DNA of 21,369 nt from a virus, in IMG/VR virus record IMGVR_UViG_3300000117_000335, positions 1-21,369 of that record, one strand, 5' to 3'. The notes under the pieces were generated by a model. That model saw only the letters and a list, made by a program, of their open reading frames with translations. It was not told the DNA's origin and did not search any database. Position 1 is the first letter of the stretch, and the number at the start of each line of letters is the position of its first letter. Positions 9,716 through 17,605 of the stretch are shown here, one piece after another. A program made the translations under genes and the position numbers.

Positions 9716-9730
9716 TTGACATTTTGTCAA
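9716..9730. promoter_or_regulatory. Operator 1: palindrome TTGAC-N5-GTCAA
   Basis: TTGACATTTTGTCAA is a perfect inverted repeat (six-base arms, three-base centre) lying over the -35 element of the promoter for the 187-aa gene. An overlapping 11-bp palindrome TCAATGATTGA (9709-9719) extends it on the left. The same TTGAC-N5-GTCAA pattern recurs at 15713-15727 and, with one arm altered, at 12679-12693. The likely ligand is the small HTH repressor encoded at 12457-12657, but this is inference. Confidence 0.65.
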
Positions 9731-9743
9731 AAATAACTAGATT
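9716..9743 (+). promoter_or_regulatory. Putative sigma70-type promoter for the 187-aa gene
   Basis: A perfect -35 hexamer TTGACA (9716-9721) is followed after 16 bp by TAGATT (9738-9743), matching four of six -10 positions. About 25 bases further on is the ribosome-binding site GGAGA in front of the ATG at 9773. The -35 is the left arm of a palindrome, so occupancy there would block the promoter. On the minus strand the same palindrome also supplies TTGACA, but the nearest good -10 (TAAAAT) is 20 bp away. Confidence 0.55.
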
Positions 9744-9772
9744 AAGATTATAACTAATAACGGAGAAAATCA

Positions 9773-10336
9773 ATGATTAAATCTTACATTTACAACAAAG
9801 ACAGCTTCGAAAATTCTGTTGAAGTTGATAACTACCCTTGGGGTTTTAAATTAAAAACTAAAAGACGTTATTGGGTAGAAACTACAAAACACGGAGACAG
9901 AGATGTTGTTTGTACTTTAAACCCTAAAACTAACAAATGGTGTAAACCTAAAAAATCTACTTATGATGCTGTCAGCCTTTTATACATCGCAGACAATGGA
10001 CATGTTAAGTTTACTGGTATTGGTAAACACGCAACTACAGAACAAGTAGAGGAATCTTTAAAAACTATAGACTACAATAAATTGTCAGATTTACAGAAAA
10101 AACAAATCTGTAATATTAAAGCAATTAACCACGTTATGAGTAAAGTAACTTGGACAGTAGAAAAAAGAGGTGAATACAATCTTTCAGACCCTGCAGACTT
10201 AGCAAGAATGAAAGCAGACGCAAACTCACCAGAGACAAAAGCTAGAGAAGAAGAACAAAAAAAGATTAATAATCAAATCAATCTAGCTATCGCGCATAAC
10301 ATTAACGCGTGTTACAAAAAAAATAATTTAGTCTAA
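9773..10336 (+). CDS. Isolated 187-aa protein of unknown function under its own operator
   Basis: The protein has 187 residues and begins MIKSYIYNKDSFENSVEVDN. It then has WGFKLKTKRRYWVETTKHGD and LNPKTNKWCKPKKSTYDAVS, a beta-rich domain with many Lys and aromatic residues. From residue 85 or so it becomes helical, ending in a charged coiled-coil-like tail (REEEQKKINNQINLAIAHNI). I cannot name a family, and there is no signal peptide or membrane segment. It is the only plus-strand gene between 1 and 12.7 kb, has its own promoter with a palindromic operator and a clear GGAGA ribosome-binding site 8 bases before the ATG. Its stop overlaps the TerS stop (CTAA). The arrangement resembles a moron or an early antirepressor-type gene; both are inference. 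Confidence 0.8.
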   Translation: MIKSYIYNKDSFENSVEVDNYPWGFKLKTKRRYWVETTKHGDRDVVCTLNPKTNKWCKPKKSTYDAVSLLYIADNGHVKFTGIGKHATTEQVEESLKTIDYNKLSDLQKKQICNIKAINHVMSKVTWTVEKRGEYNLSDPADLARMKADANSPETKAREEEQKKINNQINLAIAHNINACYKKNNLV

Positions 10337-10728
10337 CCCTCAATTACCTCGGGAGCCTTTTCTGGCTCCTGGGGTCTTCCCCAAGAAATAGTAATTTTAT
10401 TATCCGATTTAACTTCCTGTTTAACCTTATCTCCAAAAATACCACTAGCTAACTTAGATGCTAACCATCTCGCGTGGTGCGCTAGTTCTCTAGTCTGTTG
10501 AAAATACTTAGGGTCTTGAGGTTTACTTAGCATCTCATGTATTTGGTCAAGAATAGTGAACGTTCCAACTTCTCTTGCTTTCATAATTTGCTTATGAAAC
10601 TTATCATCATCACGCATTTTACGATAAACCACAGACAATGAAGGATAGTTTTTATCCTTACAAATTTCAGTTAAGGTTTTACCGTTTTCAAGCTTCTCTA
10701 TAATATTTTCTATTTTTTCTAATTGCAT
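10333..10728 (-). CDS. Terminase small subunit-like protein
   Basis: The 131-residue protein has an N-terminal HTH (residues about 10-45: KLENGKTLTEICKDKNYPSL, then SVVYRKMRDDDKFHKQI). A helix MKAREVGTFTILDQIHEMLS follows, and then the conserved block LAHHARWLASKLASGIFGDK. The sequence 'ltdIC.d...Ps...vyrw...d..F...i..AReig' followed by 'ar.Wlask..p..fGdKv' is the standard form of podovirus TerS-like proteins. It would recognise the packaging site and load TerL. The tail is Pro/Glu-rich. Unusually, it is separated from TerL by about 1.5 kb, including a plus-strand gene. Confidence 0.82.
   Translation of the reverse strand: MQLEKIENIIEKLENGKTLTEICKDKNYPSLSVVYRKMRDDDKFHKQIMKAREVGTFTILDQIHEMLSKPQDPKYFQQTRELAHHARWLASKLASGIFGDKVKQEVKSDNKITISWGRPQEPEKAPEVIEG
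10352..10382. other. Two tandem GC-rich hairpins at the convergent gene ends
   Basis: GGAGCC-TTTTCT-GGCTCC (10352-10369) is followed one base later by GGGG-TCTT-CCCC (10371-10382). Both stems are perfect and stand out from the AT-rich surroundings. They lie in the last codons of TerS (minus) and just past the stop of the 187-aa gene (plus), so each strand would place a double hairpin near a 3' end. There is no T tract, so factor-independent termination is doubtful. Blocking of convergent transcription or 3'-end protection is plausible. Confidence 0.4.
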
Positions 10729-10948
10729 TTAAAATGTACTCATCTGTTTTGTTTTTATATTGTGGTAAGTTTTTTAGAGATTTCAACTGTCCTTCAATTG
10801 AAGTAGGACCAGTAGACATCCCTGCATGATACTTACAGCGGTAATGACCTGTTTTCATCAGATTACCTTTACACCTGCAGCGCACCGTAAACTTAGAACC
10901 CCTGGTGTAACTTTCACATTGCTTTAGTAGTTTGTTACGACCAGGCAT
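10688..10948 (-). CDS. HGG-type zinc-ribbon-like protein upstream of TerS
   Basis: The 86-residue protein has a Cys-rich first half (C11, then CRCKGN and YRCKYHAG), followed by MSTGPTSIEGQLKSLKNLPQ. This matches the short proteins with 'C+.....+C++HGG.StGP.t.eGk.ri' that often precede terminase small subunits in proteobacterial phages. Here the second Gly is replaced (HAG). Four Cys and one or two His could bind a metal. The reading frame overlaps the TerS start by 41 bases, consistent with coupled expression. The exact function is unknown; a DNA-binding or packaging accessory role is inference. Confidence 0.68.
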   Translation of the reverse strand: MPGRNKLLKQCESYTRGSKFTVRCRCKGNLMKTGHYRCKYHAGMSTGPTSIEGQLKSLKNLPQYKNKTDEYILNAIRKNRKYYREA

Positions 10949-10998
10949 ACCACATATAGTAAATCATTTTTATTGTAAAATTTAAAGTTTAGCAAGCA

Positions 10999-11553
10999 TT
11001 AGGCTAATTTTTTAGTTTTTTTTTTAATCTCCCCGTTTAACCTATTCTTAGTATATTCAAAACCATCGGAGCCACGGAATTGATCGAGCAAACCTTCCGA
11101 TGCGTAAAACTTTAATTTAATACCTTGAAACTCAATATCCTTATTCTGGCTTGGCAGGAAGGGTGTATTCTGAGAATAGTTATTTCTATAATTATAATTA
11201 CTATATGGTTTAATTACTTTGGTTTTATTAATACTTATAATATTTGATAACTCAGAGTTATAAAATTTGATAACTCTCGAATTAGTAAGTAAATTCTCAT
11301 GTAATGGCAGCTTATATTCTAGTGTAGATTGTCTTCGTCTAGTCTGGATAATATTAAGCTTTTTTAGTCTGGCAATGGAACGGTAAACCGTAAGTTTAGA
11401 CAACCCGACCCTGTCTGCTATCGTCTGAACTCTAGGATAACAAACCTTAGTTTTACGATTATAAAAACTAACCAAACCAAAATAAACCAACTTATCCGAT
11501 GGGGTAAGCTTAGAGCTTTTTAATATGCTTTCATCCGCTACAAAGAAACTCAA
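10999..11553 (-). CDS. Winged-HTH replication-initiator-like protein
   Basis: The N-terminal domain reads KLTPSDKLVYFGLVSFYNRK, then CYPRVQTIADRVGLSKLTVY and RSIARLKKLNIIQTRR. This is the HTH_36-type winged helix found in phage replication proteins (O/DnaD-like) and some plasmid initiators. The middle is Asn/Tyr-rich and low in complexity (about residues 115-140), and the C-terminus is Lys-rich. No helicase or polymerase motif is visible. I chose the TTG at 11553 (184 residues) because a GGAGG lies 7 bases before it; a GTG at 11577 is possible but less well placed. The TTG overlaps the upstream stop (TTGA). It is the best candidate for a replication initiator, since no DNA polymerase is present. 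Confidence 0.68.
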   Translation of the reverse strand: MSFFVADESILKSSKLTPSDKLVYFGLVSFYNRKTKVCYPRVQTIADRVGLSKLTVYRSIARLKKLNIIQTRRRQSTLEYKLPLHENLLTNSRVIKFYNSELSNIISINKTKVIKPYSNYNYRNNYSQNTPFLPSQNKDIEFQGIKLKFYASEGLLDQFRGSDGFEYTKNRLNGEIKKKTKKLA

Positions 11554-11942
11554 AACGGTACCTCCGCTAAAACACACTCATTGCTGTGCCTCTCCTGCAG
11601 TATTTTTAGCATCTTTATAAATTCTAGGGGTTCCATGACCCTCAGCTCACTTTCGGCAGGTGTGAGCTTCTTAATGCGAAATTGGGTTACTTCATAGTGA
11701 GCTAAACCAGGGGTATAAAAAACCAGGAATGATGGTACTTTACAAGCTCTTGCAATTTTCTCAGTAACTGTGGTAGTTTTATAAGTTTGTCCTTTATCAA
11801 CCGCGGTCTCAAACATAGCTAGCGGCTCCTGGCACTTTTTACAAATCTCAATAAAATCCAGGTCCAATCCTGCCAGACCATCGAACTTTCTATGGTACTC
11901 GCTGAAGTGATCTCCTATATTAAAATAATTATATCTCGCCAT
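11550..11942 (-). CDS. Conserved phage protein, possible PD-(D/E)XK-type nuclease
   Basis: The 130-residue protein begins MARYNYFNIGDHFSEYHRKF and has a conserved core: D27/D29 and E32 near CKKC, then CQEPLAMFETAVDKGQTYKT and VTEKIARACKVPSFLVFYTP. I recognise this as a small protein recurring in podoviruses and siphoviruses with the pattern 'D.d.iE.C..C.epLal.E.a.d.Gq..K.t..t..lA...g.pa.lvlY'. Spacing of E45, D49, Q52 and K55 followed by a helix and a hydrophobic strand fits a minimal restriction-endonuclease-like fold. The CxxC may bind metal. The nuclease role is inference. It lies between two overlapping neighbours in the TerS/replication cluster. Confidence 0.6.
   Translation of the reverse strand: MARYNYFNIGDHFSEYHRKFDGLAGLDLDFIEICKKCQEPLAMFETAVDKGQTYKTTTVTEKIARACKVPSFLVFYTPGLAHYEVTQFRIKKLTPAESELRVMEPLEFIKMLKILQERHSNECVLAEVPF
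11561..11565 (-). promoter_or_regulatory. Ribosome-binding site GGAGG that decides a TTG start
   Basis: GGAGG on the minus strand lies 7 bases before TTG (11553-11551). It falls inside the last codons of the upstream gene, whose TGA overlaps the TTG. This supports a non-ATG start for the winged-HTH gene. Confidence 0.6.
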
Positions 11943-12117
11943 TTTTTCCTGGTATTCCTTTAATTAAACAATAATGCTCGCCACAATAATAGTTGTTATC
12001 CTCAATTATTACAGCAATCTTATCGCACTTAACGCACTTAGAGACCTTTTTCTCTGAGGTTGTTAAGCTTTCCGTTGATTTTGTTTGTAAGTTCGTCAAT
12101 TGCCTTATCCTTTGCAT
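11929..12117 (-). CDS. Small zinc-ribbon-like protein
   Basis: The protein has about 62 residues. The C-terminal half has CVKC, then DNNYYCGEHYC, a CxxC...CxxHxxC arrangement typical of a single zinc ribbon. It overlaps the end of the upstream coiled-coil gene by about 80 bases in another frame, and its stop overlaps the following ATG by 14 bases. The start is uncertain: the ATG at 12117 lacks a ribosome-binding site, while a TTG seven codons into the frame has AGGA 8-9 bases upstream. Only the zinc-binding part is secure. Confidence 0.5.
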   Translation of the reverse strand: MQRIRQLTNLQTKSTESLTTSEKKVSKCVKCDKIAVIIEDNNYYCGEHYCLIKGIPGKNGEI

Positions 12118-12226
12118 CAATAATTTTTTTTAATTCATTAGCTTCATGCTCATTGATTAGAACCTTAACTTCTAAATCTTTTTTTTCTTTTTTTTCAAGT
12201 TCAGTTTTTAGTTTGTTTATGCTCAT
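12038..12226 (-). CDS. Small coiled-coil protein
   Basis: This 62-residue, highly charged protein begins MSINKLKTELEKKEKKDLEV and continues as heptad-like helix (LINEHEANELKKIIDAKDKA). It is predicted to be one long coiled coil. No family is recognised. It overlaps the preceding 88-aa gene by 26 bases and carries a good AGGAG-like ribosome-binding site (GGAGGTAC) about 7 bases before the ATG. It may act as an oligomerising adaptor; nothing further can be said. Confidence 0.6.
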   Translation of the reverse strand: MSINKLKTELEKKEKKDLEVKVLINEHEANELKKIIDAKDKAIDELTNKINGKLNNLREKGL

Positions 12227-12467
12227 AAAGTACCTCCACTTTTTTTATAACCGAATTAGGTATAACATTCCTATTACCGACTTCTGTCCCGTCTGCATCG
12301 GTCGACCAATCAGAGCAAATGATTGTATTTTTTTTATTCTTTTCGATTATAAAACCTGCACTATAACAAATCGCAACATTATCTTTTTTTGCGGTCTCTA
12401 AATTTTTCCAATCACTAAAAGCGCAAATATCCTCCCAAGTGATTAGAACAAATTTTTTAAACTTCAT
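12201..12467 (-). CDS. Conserved small phage protein
   Basis: The 88-residue protein reads MKFKKFVLITWEDICAFSDW, then NVAICYSAGFIIEKNKKNTI, and ends with IPNSVIKKVEVLYEHKQTKN. The pattern 'v.W.Di...s.W......a......c.s.GfiI...k..iii......d......IPksvI..v..L' is familiar from many tailed phages as an uncharacterised protein near regulatory genes. It is probably a small all-beta fold. It follows the repressor gene (11-base overlap) on the minus strand and so belongs to the transcript that starts at the leaderless promoter. Confidence 0.65.
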   Translation of the reverse strand: MKFKKFVLITWEDICAFSDWKNLETAKKDNVAICYSAGFIIEKNKKNTIICSDWSTDADGTEVGNRNVIPNSVIKKVEVLYEHKQTKN

Positions 12468-12657
12468 AAAAATCTTTTATGGTAACTTTGTTTTTTGTAG
12501 CTGCCTTAATTTTATCTAGCATTTTAGGTCTAGGTATTCTAGAACCCGTACACCAACGATGAACGGTACTGGATGCGGTTTTACTTTGTAAACCAATGAG
12601 ATCAGCTAAACCTTTATAAGTTAATTTTTTTTTAATTCTAAATGTATTCAGTTGCAT
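12457..12657 (-). CDS. Small Cro/CI-like HTH repressor, probably leaderless mRNA
   Basis: Starting at the ATG of 12657 the protein has 66 residues. It opens MQLNTFRIKKKLTYKGLADL and continues IGLQSKTASSTVHRWCTGSR, then IPRPKMLDKIKAATKNKVTI. This is a compact XRE/Cro helix-turn-helix (residues about 12-40) with the 'P....l.kI..aT...Vt..dFy' ending seen in Cro- and YdaS-like repressors. The frame stays open upstream to 12735, but a -10 box (TATAAG, 12670-12665) sits only 7 bases before this ATG. That makes 12657 the natural start of a leaderless mRNA, as for lambda cI from PRM. An operator-like palindrome overlaps its -35. It is the best candidate for the phage repressor or Cro. Confidence 0.75.
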   Translation of the reverse strand: MQLNTFRIKKKLTYKGLADLIGLQSKTASSTVHRWCTGSRIPRPKMLDKIKAATKNKVTIKDFYEV

Positions 12658-12664
12658 AAATTTG

Positions 12665-12693
12665 CTTATAATTATTTTTTGACAAATTGGCAA
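12665..12693 (-). promoter_or_regulatory. Promoter of the HTH repressor gene (leaderless)
   Basis: On the minus strand TTGCCA (12693-12688) and TATAAG (12670-12665) are exactly 17 bp apart, each matching five of six consensus positions. Transcription should begin 6-8 bases past the -10, that is at or next to the ATG at 12657. No ribosome-binding site is possible in between. On the plus strand the same region supplies TTGACA (12679-12684), but its nearest -10 (TATATT, 12705-12710) is 20 bp away. Confidence 0.6.
12679..12693. promoter_or_regulatory. Operator 2: imperfect TTGAC-N5-GTCAA palindrome
   Basis: The plus strand reads TTGACAAATTGGCAA. One arm is the perfect TTGAC; the other is GGCAA instead of GTCAA. 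It overlaps the -35 of the repressor promoter, so binding would give autoregulation. Spacing and arm sequence are the same as in the two perfect sites at 9716 and 15713. Confidence 0.5.
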
Positions 12694-12778
12694 ACAAATT
12701 AAATTATATTCACTCAGCAAGCGAATATATTTCATTTATTGTTTACTGATAGTTTTCATTTGGTTATTAGTTTGTTCA

Positions 12779-13087
12779 ATGAATGTTGAAAATAAATTAA
12801 AAGATATTCTTAAAAAAGCAAATATTGAAACAGAGCTTCCAGAGTGGTCTAAGTTTTATAATTGGAACCATCACTCACCATCTCAAATAAATTTACCAGA
12901 TGATATTTTTTGTTTTAAATATTTTTATTTAACAGAAAGTGAAAGAGCTAAGTTTAAACCTAATTCTAAAATGGTTGCAGGAGCAACTATAGGTCAAGCA
13001 GTAGCTCAAATCTTTGCAAAGAAAATCTATAACAGAAATAAAAAACAATTTTTTAATACAGAGGAAACCAAATTTGATGACAGCTAA
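12779..13087 (+). CDS. RecB-like exonuclease, N-terminal part (frame-split gene)
   Basis: The 102-residue product begins MNVENKLKDILKKANIETEL and contains HHSPSQINLPDDIFCFKYFY, LTESERAKFKPNSKMVAGAT and IGQAVAQIFAKKI. 'SpSqi.lpdd...kYlyLt.eeRa...pnskM.aGa.iG.avq' is the N-terminal helical part of phage PD-(D/E)XK exonucleases paired with annealing proteins. It stops at TAA 13085-13087. The catalytic half continues in the +1 frame from 13077. No ribosome-binding site precedes the ATG, and a -10-like TATTAG lies at 12765-12770, so this mRNA could also be nearly leaderless (weak). On its own the product lacks catalytic residues. Confidence 0.7.
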   Translation: MNVENKLKDILKKANIETELPEWSKFYNWNHHSPSQINLPDDIFCFKYFYLTESERAKFKPNSKMVAGATIGQAVAQIFAKKIYNRNKKQFFNTEETKFDDS

Positions 13088-13742
13088 AAAAGAAGAAGTA
13101 TTTAAATTAGCAACTGCAGCTTATGATACTTACAAACCATTAAATGAGTTTGATGAATACGAATACAAAAACAACAAAGAAAATTTATTAGAAGTTTTAC
13201 AACAAACAATTAAAGGTATTGAAGAAATAGGTTTATCAGGCAACATTCTTGCAGAAAAACCAGTTAAGCATAAATTTCCTGGCTGTGTTTTACCTGTATC
13301 TGGTCAAATAGACTTATGCGATGATACAAAATTTATTGAAATTAAAACTAAGTGGAGAAAAAGAACTGGTAAATATAAATCAGATGGCTCTCCAAGCTTT
13401 AGTATTGTAAAGCCTGTTCCATTTGATGATTATTATTTACAAACTGCATTTTATTATTTTGCAACCAAGCTTGAACCGCATTTATTAATTGTAACAGAAG
13501 ACACTTATAAAATTTATACAAAAGAAAATTGTCCTCAATTACGACCAGACAATTTAAAATCTATTGCATTAAAGATAAGACAGACTTGTTTAAGAAGGGA
13601 ACGTCTAGCAGCTAGACACTCTGGAACTCATTTATGGACCAATGATGTTAATTTAGATTTAACCAATTTCAAGTGGGATGATGAACACAAAACAGTAGCA
13701 GAAGATTTATGGAACGAAAACCTCTTAACATCTACCAAATAA
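13077..13742 (+). CDS. RecB-like PD-(D/E)XK exonuclease, catalytic part (frame-split gene)
   Basis: From the ATG at 13077 this has 221 residues. The catalytic core is SGQIDLCDDTKFIEIKTKW, giving D79, E88 and K90, with Q122 in DDYYLQTAFYYF. That is the D...ExK...QxxxY set of Cas4/RecB-type nucleases. Such enzymes resect dsDNA ends for the neighbouring single-strand-annealing protein. The ATG overlaps the stop of the N-terminal part by 11 bases (ATGACAGCTAA). A join in the shape DDS-KKEEVFKLA would give a single protein of about 320 residues, the usual family length. The frame is open upstream to 13014, but that part only reads through the other half out of frame. Confidence 0.78.
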   Translation: MTAKKEEVFKLATAAYDTYKPLNEFDEYEYKNNKENLLEVLQQTIKGIEEIGLSGNILAEKPVKHKFPGCVLPVSGQIDLCDDTKFIEIKTKWRKRTGKYKSDGSPSFSIVKPVPFDDYYLQTAFYYFATKLEPHLLIVTEDTYKIYTKENCPQLRPDNLKSIALKIRQTCLRRERLAARHSGTHLWTNDVNLDLTNFKWDDEHKTVAEDLWNENLLTSTK

Positions 13743-13921
13743 ATTTATTTAAAAATAAATATAATTTTGGTAAACATAAAATTAGAGCCAATAATACAAT
13801 TATCATTTGTTCATTTATGATAATTATATTGCTCCCTCTGTTAGTTAACTATGGCTCTAATCTGTGGGATGTTGTCCAGTCTTTCTTTCCTTTCTCAATG
13901 TCCCACAGTAACTCATTATGA
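13709..13921 (+). CDS. Possible small membrane protein overlapping structured DNA/RNA
   Basis: The 70-residue frame has a basic N-terminus (MERKPLNIYQINLFKNKYNF) and one strongly hydrophobic stretch (TIIICSFMIIILLPLLV, residues about 30-46). It overlaps the exonuclease end by 34 bases, and its TGA overlaps the next ATG as ATGA. These are signs of a real coupled cistron, and the next gene lacks a ribosome-binding site. Against it, the hydrophobic part is encoded by an AT-rich palindrome and most of the frame coincides with nested inverted repeats, which may be the true functional element. Both readings are possible. Confidence 0.4.
   Translation: MERKPLNIYQINLFKNKYNFGKHKIRANNTIIICSFMIIILLPLLVNYGSNLWDVVQSFFPFSMSHSNSL
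13781..13861 (+). other. Nested inverted repeats, candidate structured RNA or cruciform
   Basis: ATTAGAGCCA (13781-13790) and TGGCTCTAAT (13852-13861) are perfect 10-bp arms. Inside them AATTATCAT (13798-13806) and ATGATAATT (13817-13825) form a perfect 9-bp stem with a 10-base loop, extended by five more pairs across one mismatch. The remaining inner strand (13831-13850) is left single-stranded and contains the palindrome TAGTTAACTA. Two perfect nested stems within 81 bases are far beyond what this AT-rich background would be expected to give. Confidence 0.6.
13862..13908 (+). other. Second hairpin, with pyrimidine-rich loop, before the annealing-protein gene
   Basis: CTGTGGGA (13862-13869) pairs perfectly with TCCCACAG (13901-13908). 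The 31-base loop contains CTTTCTTTCCTTTCTC, complementary to purine-rich ribosome-binding sites of the GGAGAAAG type used in this genome. The stem directly follows the nested hairpin and ends 9 bases before the ATG at 13918, which itself has no ribosome-binding site. It may control translation of the downstream recombination genes. Confidence 0.55.
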
Positions 13922-14517
13922 TAGAAAATAACTTAACTCCAAAACAATACTTAGAAAGTTTAATTCAAAATAAACAATGCTATGATCTGGATAATGGTAA
14001 AGTAGCTCTGTATCATAAAGATATAGAACAAATGGCAGCTTACTTCGATATAACTACTGATGTCGATATTAGAACTGCAGATGGTAAGATTAGATTTGCA
14101 ATCTGTAAAGCAACGGCAACGGTTAATTCTAATAATAGAACTTACTCTAGCCTAGGTGAAGCGCACCCAGATACTAATGGATTTGCATACTTTGTAGCGG
14201 TTGCAGAAAAGAGAGCTGTAGATAGAGCTATCCTAAAAGCGCTGCACTTACATGGTGATGTTTTATCTTATGAAGAATTAGATTTAAGAAAAAAACAACC
14301 AGTTAAAAAAACAACTGAGGAACCTAAAACAAAAGTTAAATCTTTAACTGAAGAAATAGAACACAAAATTTTATCTGCAAAAGATAAAGTCAGTTTTGTT
14401 AAGTTGCTTGGCAAGTATGAAAATTACTTGTCTCAATTAACAAAAGAAAATCCTGGTTACGCAAATAAATTGCTAGAAAAAATCCAGGTGAAACAACAAG
14501 AAATGGAGGACAAATAA
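13918..14517 (+). CDS. Single-strand-annealing-like recombination protein (putative)
   Basis: The 199-residue protein has a conserved core at residues about 30-110: KDIEQMAAYFDITTDVDIRT, then YSSLGEAHPDTNGFAYFVAV and AEKRAVDRAILKALHLHGDV. The stretch with a 'GEA' turn followed by 'A..a.kRAvdRaiLkalglhG' resembles the core of Rad52/ERF-type annealing proteins and related phage proteins of marine podoviruses. After residue 130 a Lys-rich linker leads to a helical C-terminal domain. It directly follows the exonuclease, the normal pairing of a two-component recombination system. There is no ribosome-binding site; the ATGA overlap and the hairpin just upstream suggest coupled or regulated translation. 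The family call is moderate. Confidence 0.6.
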   Translation: MIENNLTPKQYLESLIQNKQCYDLDNGKVALYHKDIEQMAAYFDITTDVDIRTADGKIRFAICKATATVNSNNRTYSSLGEAHPDTNGFAYFVAVAEKRAVDRAILKALHLHGDVLSYEELDLRKKQPVKKTTEEPKTKVKSLTEEIEHKILSAKDKVSFVKLLGKYENYLSQLTKENPGYANKLLEKIQVKQQEMEDK

Positions 14518-14817
14518 ATGTCGTTTAATCCAAAACCAGGATATGTTTGCTCGTTTGCGATGCAAAAAAATCCTAACAAAACAGAAGCTAAGCATCCAGA
14601 TTTAGTCTTAATTAATCATATGACTAAAAATGGAAAGCAGGCTCCTAAAAATTTTACCATTAAATTAAATGGTCAAGATGTTTGGTGCCAGGCTTCGGGT
14701 TATAAACAAGAAGATGGTTCAGTTAAGATAACGATTACTCAAACTGATACCAATAAGAAACAAGGTTTTGCGCCTAAGCCTGCATACAATGCAGCTGCAG
14801 CGGAAGACTTTATTTAA
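14518..14817 (+). CDS. Small protein, possibly ssDNA-binding
   Basis: The 99-residue protein starts MSFNPKPGYVCSFAMQKNPN. A strand-rich middle follows (FTIKLNGQDVWCQASGYKQE, DGSVKITITQTDTNKK), then a low-complexity linker and an acidic end, AAAEDFI. A small beta barrel plus flexible linker and an acidic hydrophobic tip is the plan of phage SSBs. The position after exonuclease and annealing protein also fits. No clear SSB motif is present, so this is inference. A strong GGAGG lies 8 bases before the ATG, and the start follows directly on the previous stop (TAAATG). Confidence 0.5.
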   Translation: MSFNPKPGYVCSFAMQKNPNKTEAKHPDLVLINHMTKNGKQAPKNFTIKLNGQDVWCQASGYKQEDGSVKITITQTDTNKKQGFAPKPAYNAAAAEDFI

Positions 14818-14819
14818 AT

Positions 14820-15032
14820 ATGAAATACGGTTTAACTCCAATACATCGTAAAGTTTATGAGTGGATTAAATCGTATATAAATAAGCACGGGTATGCGCCG
14901 TCTTACGATGAAATTAAGGTGGCGCATAATATGAAAACCAGGTCCCACGTTCACAAAATTATTGATAATTTAGAAAAAAGAAAATGGATAGCAAGAATAC
15001 CCGCAACAGCCAGAAGCATAACGATACTTTAA
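14820..15032 (+). CDS. Stand-alone LexA-type winged-helix DNA-binding protein
   Basis: The 70-residue protein is a complete LexA N-terminal domain: LTPIHRKVYEWIKSYINKHG, YAPSYDEIKVAHNMKTRSHV and HKIIDNLEKRKWIARIPATA, ending RSITIL. This aligns by eye with 'Lt.rq.evl.fI..yi.e.GyaPs..EIa...gl.SrsaVh..l..Le.kG.I.R.p...RsI.l'. The C-terminal S24 self-cleavage domain is absent, so it cannot be self-inactivated by RecA. It may bind a host SOS-like operator or a phage site. Only two bases separate it from the preceding stop, and its 3' end overlaps the DUF3310 gene by 49 bases. Confidence 0.78.
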   Translation: MKYGLTPIHRKVYEWIKSYINKHGYAPSYDEIKVAHNMKTRSHVHKIIDNLEKRKWIARIPATARSITIL

Positions 15033-15235
15033 AAACACTAGAGAACCAGGGAGGCAAGCATTACCAAGGCTTTGCTATTCAACCTGCTCAATTTATAATT
15101 AAAAATAAACTTCCATTTGCTGAAGGAAACGTCATAAAATATACGTTAAGACACCGCGAAAAGAACGGTGCCGAAGATATTAAAAAGGCTATACATTACT
15201 TAAAAATAATACTAGAAGTAGAGTATGGCGAATAA
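14984..15235 (+). CDS. DUF3310 (SaV-like) protein
   Basis: The 83-residue protein has, from residue 23, GGKHYQGFAIQPAQFIIKNK, then LPFAEGNVIKYTLRHREKNG and AEDIKKAIHYLKIILE. The 'hY....iqPiefi.....f.eGnviKYi.Ry..Kng.eDl.Ka..Yl' pattern is the DUF3310 signature. Such proteins are frequent in phage nucleotide-metabolism or early regions and are sometimes annotated as nucleotide kinase, a function that I do not consider established. The first 20 or so residues are Asn/Lys-rich and lie over the end of the LexA-type gene in another frame. Confidence 0.82.
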   Translation: MDSKNTRNSQKHNDTLKTLENQGGKHYQGFAIQPAQFIIKNKLPFAEGNVIKYTLRHREKNGAEDIKKAIHYLKIILEVEYGE

Positions 15236-15491
15236 ATTTGTCAAAAGATGGGACTATGAATGTATTGTTTCTTTTGAGACTACTTCAAATTCTGTTGAGC
15301 AATTGGCTATGATGAACAAACCGCCAGAAAACGCAAGCTGCGTTGTTAAACAAGATGATTTACGATTTATAAAATCAACCGTAAAGGAGGTAAAGCAGAT
15401 TGTCGATATACCAGCAGCTAACAGAGAAGATAGCTCAAGCCGAAAAGCAGAGAAAAAATCTTCTCTCAAGGATAAGCAAGACCAAAAATAA
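15225..15491 (+). CDS. Small hypothetical protein with charged tail
   Basis: The 88-residue frame begins MANKFVKRWDYECIVSFETT with a short beta-like segment and ends in a Ser/Lys/Asp-rich disordered tail. No family is recognised. Its ATG overlaps the preceding stop by 11 bases. The last 92 bases are shared with the following TTG-started gene in another frame, so the final 30 residues may be constrained by that gene rather than by function here. Confidence 0.5.
   Translation: MANKFVKRWDYECIVSFETTSNSVEQLAMMNKPPENASCVVKQDDLRFIKSTVKEVKQIVDIPAANREDSSSRKAEKKSSLKDKQDQK
15383..15390 (+). promoter_or_regulatory. Strong ribosome-binding site AAAGGAGG inside an upstream gene
   Basis: AAAGGAGG ends 9 bases before TTG 15400-15402. 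It is one of the best matches to the anti-Shine-Dalgarno sequence in the window, yet lies in the middle of the 88-aa gene. It is the reason for accepting the TTG-started 65-aa frame. Confidence 0.6.
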
Positions 15492-15597
15492 AATGGGTTA
15501 TTATCCAGTAAATACTTTGGCACTTGCTAAACAAGCTAACGAAAAGTTAGTGGATATAGTCCAGCTACAGGACCAAAGAAAACAGCTAGAATACTAA
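15400..15597 (+). CDS. Small coiled-coil protein with TTG start
   Basis: The 65-residue product reads MSIYQQLTEKIAQAEKQRKN, then LLSRISKTKNKMGYYPVNTL, and ends in a second charged helix VDIVQLQDQRKQLEY. Two helices joined by a short turn suggest a helical hairpin. No family is recognised. The TTG start is supported by the consensus ribosome-binding site 9 bases upstream. It is the last gene before the 175-base gap holding operator 3. Confidence 0.58.
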   Translation: MSIYQQLTEKIAQAEKQRKNLLSRISKTKNKMGYYPVNTLALAKQANEKLVDIVQLQDQRKQLEY

Positions 15598-15712
15598 GTT
15601 TTCTTAAATAGTAGCGCACAACTTGTAAAATTTCTTTTACTTGCTAAGGCTTCTTTGCACTTTTTTTAAAATATTCCGTAACATTAGTTGATAAAACAAT
15701 CACAGACACCTG
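15598..15712 (+). other. Gap between early genes and integrase unit, with hairpin and T run
   Basis: No gene is seen here. A small perfect hairpin GTAAAA-TTTC-TTTTAC lies at 15625-15640, and a run of seven or eight T follows at about 15660-15667. The two are separated by about 20 bases, so they do not make a standard intrinsic terminator, but the T run may end early transcripts weakly. I searched for a tRNA-like segment that could be an attachment site and found none. Confidence 0.3.
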
Positions 15713-15727
15713 TTGACTAAATGTCAA
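15713..15727. promoter_or_regulatory. Operator 3: palindrome TTGAC-N5-GTCAA
   Basis: TTGACTAAATGTCAA has perfect five-base arms and the same 15-bp length as operator 1 (TTGACATTTTGTCAA). The central bases differ while the arms are identical, as expected of a dimer-binding site rather than a duplicated segment. It overlaps the -35 of the unit encoding the integrase. Confidence 0.65.
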
Positions 15728-15742
15728 TAACTATGCTAGAAG
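15713..15742 (+). promoter_or_regulatory. Putative promoter for the integrase unit
   Basis: TTGACT (15713-15718, five of six) is followed by TAGAAG (15737-15742) at 18 bp or TATGCT (15732-15737) at 13 bp. The first has acceptable spacing and the second a slightly better -10-like core. The ribosome-binding site GGAG and the ATG at 15773 follow within 31-36 bases. The layout parallels the promoter at 9716, including the palindrome on the -35. Confidence 0.45.
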
Positions 15743-15772: not shown

Positions 15773-15886
15773 ATGAGAAAACTAACTCTTAAACAATACA
15801 TAATCATGTTCATAGTTTTTGAACTTGTTTTTGTTGGAGTAGGTTTATTTGCATTACATCAATGGTCAACACAAGGAGGAATATAA
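15773..15886 (+). CDS. 37-aa single-pass membrane peptide
   Basis: The short frame encodes MRKLTLKQYIIMFIVFELVF followed by VGVGLFALHQW and a short polar tail. It has a positive N-terminus and one hydrophobic span (residues about 10-28), so N-in C-out topology is expected. GGAG lies 10 bases before the ATG. It is the first gene behind operator 3, and the ribosome-binding site of the next gene (AAGGAGG) lies in its last codons. Its function is unknown; small membrane peptides in lysogeny units can act in superinfection exclusion, but nothing in the sequence proves that. Confidence 0.6.
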   Translation: MRKLTLKQYIIMFIVFELVFVGVGLFALHQWSTQGGI

Positions 15887-15888
15887 CC

Positions 15889-16209
15889 ATGGGATTACAC
15901 GTAAACATATATAAATGGAATTTAGGTGATTGCACAAATGGAGGAATTTCATCTAAGACACACGAATTGTGTCTTGTAAATGTTCCTGGTCCTTTTGAAC
16001 CAGATAAAAAAATTCCTGCTGCATTACTTGTAGAAGGTAACTTACCTGGTACAGCAAAGATAGTTCCACTTAAAGAAACTCGTAAAGGTAAATGGTTTAT
16101 GTTTGGTGGTAACTTTGCTTATTCTTCTGATGCTAGATTTTGTGATGCTGTAGAAAAACTACAAGGCTCTAGTAGTCCAGTAGCAATTCACGACAGAACT
16201 GAAGACTAA
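15889..16209 (+). CDS. Hypothetical protein in the integrase unit
   Basis: The 106-residue protein begins MGLHVNIYKWNLGDCTNGGI and continues with a beta-rich sequence (LCLVNVPGPFEPDKKIPAAL, TAKIVPLKETRKGKWFMFGG). The ATG at 15889 is chosen because AAGGAGG lies 9 bases upstream; an upstream ATG at 15862 would start inside the membrane-peptide gene without a site. The 'TNGGIS' turn and 'GkWfMFGGnF' end recur in small marine phage proteins of unknown role. Its TAA overlaps the integrase ATG by one base (TAATG), so integrase translation depends on it. Confidence 0.65.
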   Translation: MGLHVNIYKWNLGDCTNGGISSKTHELCLVNVPGPFEPDKKIPAALLVEGNLPGTAKIVPLKETRKGKWFMFGGNFAYSSDARFCDAVEKLQGSSSPVAIHDRTED

Positions 16210-17252
16210 TGTTTATCAGAAAAAACGGAACCAAATACAAAGTATACGATGAGGGTCGAAAGACCCTCGCGTCATTTGATACTAAAGATCAAGCGATCGC
16301 CTGGACAACCAAGCCAAGCACTATAGATTTCACACAAGCTTTTAATTTATTTAATAAAAATATACAGGACCAAGTAAACAATGGCATAATTAAGAAACAT
16401 ACTGGACAAAGATACCAGGAAATCGTTTCCTGCCACATAGAACCCCTAATTTTTAACGTTCCAATTAATACATACAAATACTCAGATTTCTTAAACAACT
16501 ACCTTAAAAAGCTTTCTATGGCGGTTTCTCGTACGACTATGCAGCCTTTGTCTGCCAAAACCTACAAAGATATTATTGCGGTCTTTAGAATGATTATAAA
16601 GTACATTAGAGATTTAGATTATGACATTGGGGATTGTGCAAAGATATTAGATTACAGAACCAAGGTGCCTGCTAGTAAAAAAAATAAAACTAAAGATGAA
16701 TTTTATACTACGATCAATGATGCTAAATTATTAATTCAATCTGAAACTAATCTTAAATATAAAACTTTATATTGTTTAGCATTAGTCTCTGGAGCCAGAA
16801 CCAATGAGCTGCTTGCTGCTTGTTATGATGACTTTCAAAATAATACCTGGACCATACAGAATACTTTAGACAATGATAATGTATTTGAACCAGGGTCTGT
16901 TAAAACTATAGCAGGGTTTAGAACCGTGGATGTTACTGTTGAAGTAACTACATTAATTAAAAGTTTAAAATTACTTAATCTATCTAACAATAGGTTGTTC
17001 AATATTTCTAAAAGCCAGGTCAAGTATCATACTCAAAAACTCGCAAAGTCTATTGGGATTGCTTGGCAAGGTGGACTAAGTCCATTTAGAAAACTATCTT
17101 CAAGTTTAGTCTTTGATAGTAATATCTTGTCTGAAAAAGAATTTAGACAACGATATGGCTGGGAAGATTTAAAAACTTTTAGAAAGTATTACCAAAGACA
17201 AACAAGAAATAATGCAAGGGTCGATGGTATATTTAATAAACTAACAAACTAA
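16209..17252 (+). CDS. int: Tyrosine integrase (site-specific recombinase)
   Basis: The 347-residue protein has an arm-type N-terminus (MFIRKNGTKYKVYDEGRKTL), a SAM-like core-binding domain (about 40-150) and a catalytic domain. R197 (SGARTNE), K232 (SVKTIAGFR), R294 (SPFRK), W318 (YGWED) and the nucleophile Y327 (FRKYYQR, nine residues after W318) are visible. The usual His of the HxxR box is Ser291 here. It integrates the phage genome into the host chromosome and, with an excisionase, reverses this. It belongs to the operator-3 unit and is coupled by TAATG to the preceding gene. No excisionase is recognised; the downstream XRE protein could fill a directionality role. The start codon follows directly, so no other start is needed. 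Confidence 0.92.
   Translation: MFIRKNGTKYKVYDEGRKTLASFDTKDQAIAWTTKPSTIDFTQAFNLFNKNIQDQVNNGIIKKHTGQRYQEIVSCHIEPLIFNVPINTYKYSDFLNNYLKKLSMAVSRTTMQPLSAKTYKDIIAVFRMIIKYIRDLDYDIGDCAKILDYRTKVPASKKNKTKDEFYTTINDAKLLIQSETNLKYKTLYCLALVSGARTNELLAACYDDFQNNTWTIQNTLDNDNVFEPGSVKTIAGFRTVDVTVEVTTLIKSLKLLNLSNNRLFNISKSQVKYHTQKLAKSIGIAWQGGLSPFRKLSSSLVFDSNILSEKEFRQRYGWEDLKTFRKYYQRQTRNNARVDGIFNKLTN
16251..16268 (+). repeat. Perfect hairpin with GAAA tetraloop near the integrase start
   Basis: GAGGGTCGAAAGACCCTC forms a 7-bp, GC-rich stem with a GNRA tetraloop, 42 bases after the integrase ATG. It uses codons (CTC, GCG next to it) that are rare elsewhere in this AT-rich gene, hinting that the structure itself is selected. 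Candidate roles are slowing translation or protecting the mRNA; no T tract follows, so it is not a standard terminator. Confidence 0.5.
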
Positions 17253-17260
17253 GGAGCAAA

Positions 17261-17605
17261 ATGGCAAATAAACATTTACCATATGATAGTGAAGTTTGTA
17301 GCAAACTGATTGAAGCTACATCTTATAATCTAAAAAAATATAGATTAGAAAGAAAGATGACCCAAATGCGATTAGCAGATAAGCTATCTAAGTTTTTAGG
17401 TCAACGATACTCGTACCAACAAATACAAAAGTATGAGTCATTGGATAGAAAAAAGAATAACAAGATACCTTTACTGGTAGGCTATGCTTTTTCTAAAATT
17501 CTAAACAAACCATTAGAAACTTTTTTCATTAGTAAAGAAGAAAGAGATAATGCGATTATCTTTTCTGGCGCACTAAAACCAAAAGAAGAAACGGTTAATG
17601 GTTAA
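17261..17605 (+). CDS. XRE-family HTH transcriptional regulator
   Basis: In this 114-residue protein the HTH is at about residues 20-75: LKKYRLERKMTQMRLADKLS, then YSYQQIQKYESLDRKKNNKI and PLLVGYAFSKILNKPLETFF. 'l...R..k.mtQ..lAdkl....sy.qiqkYE.g.n.ip...l...a..l..pl..fF' is the typical XRE domain of bacterial and phage repressors. The tail is short, with no sensor or protease domain. The AAGGAG site lies a few bases before the ATG, 8 bases after the integrase stop. It may regulate integrase/lysogeny or be the long-term repressor, with the smaller HTH protein acting like Cro; the sequence does not settle which. Confidence 0.82.
   Translation: MANKHLPYDSEVCSKLIEATSYNLKKYRLERKMTQMRLADKLSKFLGQRYSYQQIQKYESLDRKKNNKIPLLVGYAFSKILNKPLETFFISKEERDNAIIFSGALKPKEETVNG

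Follow-up and report, generated by a model that had tools for sequence, protein, structure and literature searches.

A conserved palindrome at integrase and cargo promoters predicts a distributed repressor regulon in uncultivated relatives of HTVC010P-type phages

Introduction

Could one palindrome, lying over three separate promoters of a marine phage, be the operator through which a single repressor of the virus controls its integrase and other genes? HTVC010P-like phages have mostly been described as lytic. They are among the most abundant known marine viruses (PMC4981710), and freshwater HTVC010P-like genomes were reported to be lytic and to have no integrase (PMC6811365). The window analyzed here, that is, the whole stretch of 21,369 nucleotides (positions 1 to 21,369 of the linear viral record IMGVR_UViG_3300000117_000335), comes from an uncultivated tailed phage, and its terminase shares 60 to 63% identity with those of HTVC034P, Greip, and other HTVC010P-type Pelagibacter phages. 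It encodes a tyrosine integrase (16209..17252, plus strand; PHROG 1, E value of 3e-24), in which residues R197, K232, R294, W318, and Y328 were invariant over an alignment of the window's own clade (clade A) and a more distant one (clade B). Searches of phage isolates with this integrase, or with the product of the gene behind the first palindrome (gene A), returned 0 relatives, and a tRNA scan of the window found none. The titles and abstracts of the literature on SAR11 prophage repressors or cro mentioned no such circuit.

Three palindromes over promoters in the window

The preliminary description had pointed to two palindromes with identical arms and a third retaining one arm exactly, and these hold up as the only exact matches to TTGAC-N5-GTCAA in the window plus a site with one mismatch. 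Operator 1 (9716..9730, plus strand; TTGACATTTTGTCAA) lies 5' of gene A and overlaps a promoter-like sequence, TTGACA-16-TAGATT, at 9716-9743. Operator 2 (12679..12693, minus strand) reads TTGAC-N5-GGCAA and lies 5' of a gene for a 66-aa helix-turn-helix (HTH) protein; read on the minus strand, the left arm of this site provides the -35 hexamer TTGCCA (12693-12688), followed by a 17-bp spacer and the -10 hexamer TATAAG (12670-12665), 7 nt from the ATG. Operator 3 (15713..15727, plus strand; TTGACTAAATGTCAA), again exact, lies 5' of a unit of cargo, integrase, and HTH genes, with the -35 hexamer TTGACT, a spacer of 18 bp, and the -10 hexamer TAGAAG (15737-15742) preceded by TG. All three sites fall in promoter gaps, as had been claimed, though noncoding sequence makes up only ∼5.5% of the window by our own gene list. 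The overlap with -35-like hexamers was also borne out at each site, but it adds little because TTGAC is itself the -35 consensus. Elsewhere, pairing of the arms at this spacing with no more than one mismatch occurred at a single further site, at 2138 inside a tail gene.

The position of operator 2 depends on where the HTH gene starts, as the site lies within the longest reading frame (92 aa, start at 12735) and 5' of the 66-aa start (ATG at 12657-12655). In three contigs (L003, L004, and L045), codons 1 to 20 of this frame are frame-shifted relative to the remainder; therefore, judging from these alignments, the 66-aa start is very likely correct and the site lies in the promoter. Both the 66-aa HTH gene and the CI genes of relatives appear leaderless, with a -10-like TATAAG or TATATT ∼6 to 7 nt 5' of the ATG (window, 12655-12670; L228, 760-800). 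Next to the HTH gene, a nuclease-like gene (12779-13742) occupies two overlapping frames in the window and one 324-aa open reading frame (ORF) in clade B, which may reflect a frameshift, a split gene, or a sequencing error.

Dinucleotide shuffles gave an expectation of 0.02 exact matches each, and two matches occurred in 0 of 300 shuffles. At two mismatches, the 13 sites observed were at chance level (11.6 expected), and eight inverted-repeat words with 5-bp arms (at least two G/C) recur in the window, compared with 0 to 4 in 8 shuffles. Since the motif was selected after inspection of the window sequence and other palindromic words recur, these statistics are merely suggestive; relatives were therefore examined, and conservation settles the matter.

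Conservation among close relatives

Clade A relatives were gathered by scans with the integrase, gene A, and the HTH protein, and their integrases share 83 to 100% identity. Conservation upstream of the same genes was the check proposed in the preliminary description, and all three sites were kept in every clade A contig covering them and were not scattered through coding sequence. Operator 1 was exact in all contigs covering the gene A slot, operator 2 showed TTGAC-N5-GGCAA with the same degenerate arm throughout, and the integrase unit carried the identical 15-mer of operator 3 in all covering contigs. Among nonredundant clade A contigs, 10 of 10 arm columns were invariant at each operator, compared with 19/65, 14/65, and 32/65 flank columns (one-sided Fisher P values of 2e-5, 2e-6, and 2e-3, for columns that are not independent of phylogeny). 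The centre was variable in operators 1 and 2 and constant in operator 3. When viral contigs were scanned for the exact 15-mer of operator 3, 114 stretches were found; those having further genes in common with the window were clade members only, and the matches also included L196, an unrelated-looking contig.

One contig, L008, was considered as a counterexample, having the integrase and no site, and was rejected because its clade A part starts after operator 3. Its first 6,184 positions (L008, 1-6184; IMG/VR) are cyanophage-like, include a psbA-like gene, and are joined mid-gene to the clade A integrase region at ∼6184; the contig is probably an assembly chimera.

Exact sites in a distant clade

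Clade B, which is apparently temperate, comprises G010, G011, G016, and shorter contigs, and its identity to the window is ∼70% for the terminase, 24 to 30% for the integrase, and 37 to 46% for the HTH protein. The three long records (34 to 40 kb) each contain exactly two exact sites, at the gene A and integrase promoters, and the site is found at the promoter of gene A even though this gene is inverted relative to its neighbors. That the palindromes are due to chance, or are -35 boxes that happen to have a second arm, is thus extremely improbable: TTGAC does match the -35 consensus and other palindromic words do recur in the window, but both arms are conserved across clades around variable centres, and exact sites recur in distant relatives at the homologous promoters.

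Clade B also carries a CI-like gene of 228 to 235 aa, divergent from the Cro-like HTH gene. A site of the same form lies over the CI start codon (TTGACAGTATGGCAA in L107), and another lies at the cro promoter (TTGACTTTTAGTCAA in L239; others are more degenerate). Many clade B promoters have two sites 21 to 22 bp apart. Presumably, the CI-like repressor of these relatives uses the same operator. A complete tRNA-Pro(TGG) gene, probably the attachment site, lies ∼0.4 kb 3' of the clade B integrase (L106, 8587-8661; L107, 6777-6853; L109, 11696-11772). A search of genome contigs found no SAR11 genome with a related prophage; its single match, L218, is a clade B phage contig inside a Verrucomicrobia-labeled metagenome-assembled genome (MAG), with an exact operator 5' of the integrase cassette.

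Joint variation of operators and regulators

In a third group, clade C, the integrase shares 37 to 40% identity with that of clade B. No exact TTGAC-N5-GTCAA was present in clade C contigs; the same 5-N5-5 geometry occurs in the same places, with TTACC or TTGCC arms and sites paired at 31 or 41 bp. A divergent pair of CI-like and Cro-like genes is present, an operator again covers the CI start codon, and the recognition helices of both proteins are unlike those of clades A and B. Moreover, two contigs (L268 and L274) combine clade C sequence around the integrase promoter with B-type CI/Cro helices, and their sites have TTGAC arms. Three others (L250, L271, and L278) mix types and fit no simple code, and a strict code linking recognition-helix residues to operator bases was rejected, as no clean pattern emerged. 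Tandem sites in relatives are 21 to 22, 31, or 40 to 41 bp apart, that is, whole helix turns, with a spacing of 34 in L250 being out of helical phase. Such joint variation of arms and helices is what an operator of phage-encoded CI/Cro proteins would predict, in a sample that is small and phylogenetically structured, with phylogeny confounded with regulator type. By its arrangement, the operator set in the relatives is the apparent signature of CI/Cro-type operators. Clade C contigs also have a second conserved palindrome, TTAGAACTATTCTAA, 57 bp 5' of the first operator at the integrase promoter (L253, 4957-4971; L246, 3370-3384; and other clade C contigs).

The sites were observed only in integrase-bearing relatives. 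Like the window, HTVC010P-type pelagiphages (HTVC034P, Greip, Lederberg, and Skadi) have divergent small HTH and nuclease genes; unlike it, all five isolates examined (Lederberg, HTVC034P, HTVC028P, Greip, and Skadi-10) contain no exact site. Only HTVC028P among them has an annotated integrase, and its possession of an integrase with no operator counts against the model. Environmental relatives with an HTH protein of ∼42% identity but another recognition helix likewise had no exact site. Palindromic 15-mers are typical of host regulators too, and a host transcription factor bound at the site would let the phage sense the state of its host; this is very improbable, however, because the five isolated pelagiphages examined have no exact site and the arms change among relatives together with the phage regulators.

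Candidate binding proteins

The likeliest repressor had been proposed to be the 66-aa Cro-like HTH protein (12457..12657, minus strand), the first gene of a leftward unit, and it remains the best candidate. Both TTGAC-bearing clades have it as their HTH_3-type regulator, its predicted structure resembles P22 c2 and 434 repressor, and operator arms vary where CI/Cro recognition helices vary. Its 92-aa form scored 22.5 bits against Pfam HTH_3 (curated cutoff, 23; E value of 1.2e-4), and several PHROG repressor families matched the 66-aa protein with E values of 1e-5 to 1e-3. The AlphaFold2 model is a five-helix HTH (pLDDT of 91) that aligns with P22 c2 over 60 residues (Z score of 8.3, root mean square deviation of 2.2) and with 434 repressor at a Z score of 6.9, although such a modeled shared fold does not by itself show function. 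A 70-aa LexA-like HTH protein (14820-15032) is also shared, at ∼51% identity, and may be a binder.

No CI homologue was found in the window, which is incomplete, or in clade A contigs, and another repressor could replace CI. The 114-aa HTH protein (17261..17605, plus strand), encoded directly 3' of the integrase in the operator 3 unit, would suit this role, autoregulating through operator 3 and repressing at operators 1 and 2; it matches PHROG repressors and is conserved at 74 to 100% in clade A. Nevertheless, it was found in clade A only, and clade B, with the same exact operators, has no homologue at an E value of 1e-4, so that we regard it as an unlikely binder, though it may be a second player.

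Lambda CII is one regulator acting around the -35 region of three separate promoters, including that of the integrase, where it recognizes direct repeats and activates. A CII-style activator of lysogeny genes, contacting the -35 region of several promoters, would fit the three promoters seen here (one of them for an integrase), their imperfect -10 elements, and their spacers of 16 to 18 bp. It is quite unlikely nonetheless, as the repeats are inverted rather than direct, the relatives have tandem CI/Cro-like operators, and one site in clades B and C covers a start codon, which makes activation there unlikely. The window thus resembles the CII regulon in having sites around -35 at three separate promoters, integrase included, and differs from it in that both arms are conserved as inverted repeats and probably mediate repression.

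Cargo genes behind the operators

Gene A (9773..10336, plus strand) encodes a 187-aa protein that had no match in families, defense models, or a fold search against the PDB; it is widespread among marine viruses, and its predicted structure is confident (pLDDT of 93). In three contigs (L007, L010, and L011), unrelated ORFs occupy its slot, and the gene that the preliminary description took as isolated is, judging from these replacements, an exchangeable cargo slot. The integrase unit starts with a 37-aa membrane-like ORF (15773..15886, plus strand) and a 106-aa cargo protein (15889..16209, plus strand; PHROG 6045). Several small genes of this unit vary, and similar cargo ORFs occur in clades A (L150) and B (L029, L030, and L218). 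Operators 1 and 3 have thus been retained while unrelated cargo took the place of the genes behind them. In two clade C contigs (L266 and L267), gene A itself lies within the integrase unit, 3' of the operators. Beyond clades A and B, no TTGAC-type operator was found 5' of gene A; in L055 the sequence there is TTGCT-N5-AGCAA. In the integrase unit, cargo genes frequently have the ending ...EAA* and a stop codon that overlaps a start codon, giving the look of a modular cassette (L029, 1291-2582; L218, 2404-4020; window, 15773-16209), and this ending probably arises because the last codons contain a ribosome-binding site.

Proposed regulation and significance

Because the same three places are kept in relatives, one virus repressor most likely controls all three. 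We consider it likely, from comparative sequence analysis, that a Cro/CI-type repressor system encoded by the phage itself has the palindrome as its operator and that in the window a dimer of the 66-aa HTH protein represses the three promoters. One subunit would bind each TTGAC arm, the arms lying 10 bp, or roughly one helix turn, apart, and the bound protein would probably block RNA polymerase near the -35 region of the promoters of the cargo slot (gene A), the 66-aa gene itself, and the unit of cargo, integrase, and 114-aa HTH genes. Arm mismatches predict that operators 1 and 3 would be filled before operator 2, and since operator 2 would be weaker, autorepression would follow only after the strong sites are filled. 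Early in lytic infection, when the 66-aa protein is made, the integrase and cargo would be off; as its level drops they would be switched on, and expression in the lysogen, like the sign of control, is predicted on this basis. More tentatively, the window's clade may have lost CI and may leave the decision between lysis and lysogeny to the Cro-like protein and the integrase-linked 114-aa HTH protein, with the operators as docking promoters for cargo. Cargo landing behind operator 1 or 3 would then fall under immunity control, and for this reason the operator rather than the gene would be conserved.

As in the CI/Cro immunity regions of lambda, P22, and 434, palindromic operators overlap promoters and the candidate has a P22 c2-like fold; clades B and C share with lambdoid phages the divergent pair of CI-like and Cro-like genes, helically phased tandem operators, and an operator at the CI start, and the window shares the palindromic operator at the cro promoter (operator 2 over the -35 of the 66-aa gene). 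Unlike in those regions, operators here also lie at distant integrase and cargo promoters, and the window's clade has single operators, with no CI gene found there. The stoperators of cluster A mycobacteriophages are described as numerous, asymmetric sites that halt transcription elongation (PMC9283540). They are comparable in that one phage repressor would serve sites at several places in the genome, but the window has three promoter palindromes and each long clade B record two exact ones.

What appears new is that, in HTVC010P-like phages, integrase and cargo genes are marked by a predicted repressor regulon with distributed sites, ordinary in principle and unexpected in this group. The predicted regulon belongs to uncultivated relatives that encode an integrase, in a group of marine phages that is very abundant and mostly lytic, and the motif is a sequence tag that would help in recognizing such relatives. 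In addition, the operators yield a list of cargo genes under predicted immunity control, and the way operators and CI/Cro alleles vary together would define immunity groups testable in vitro without culture of the phages.
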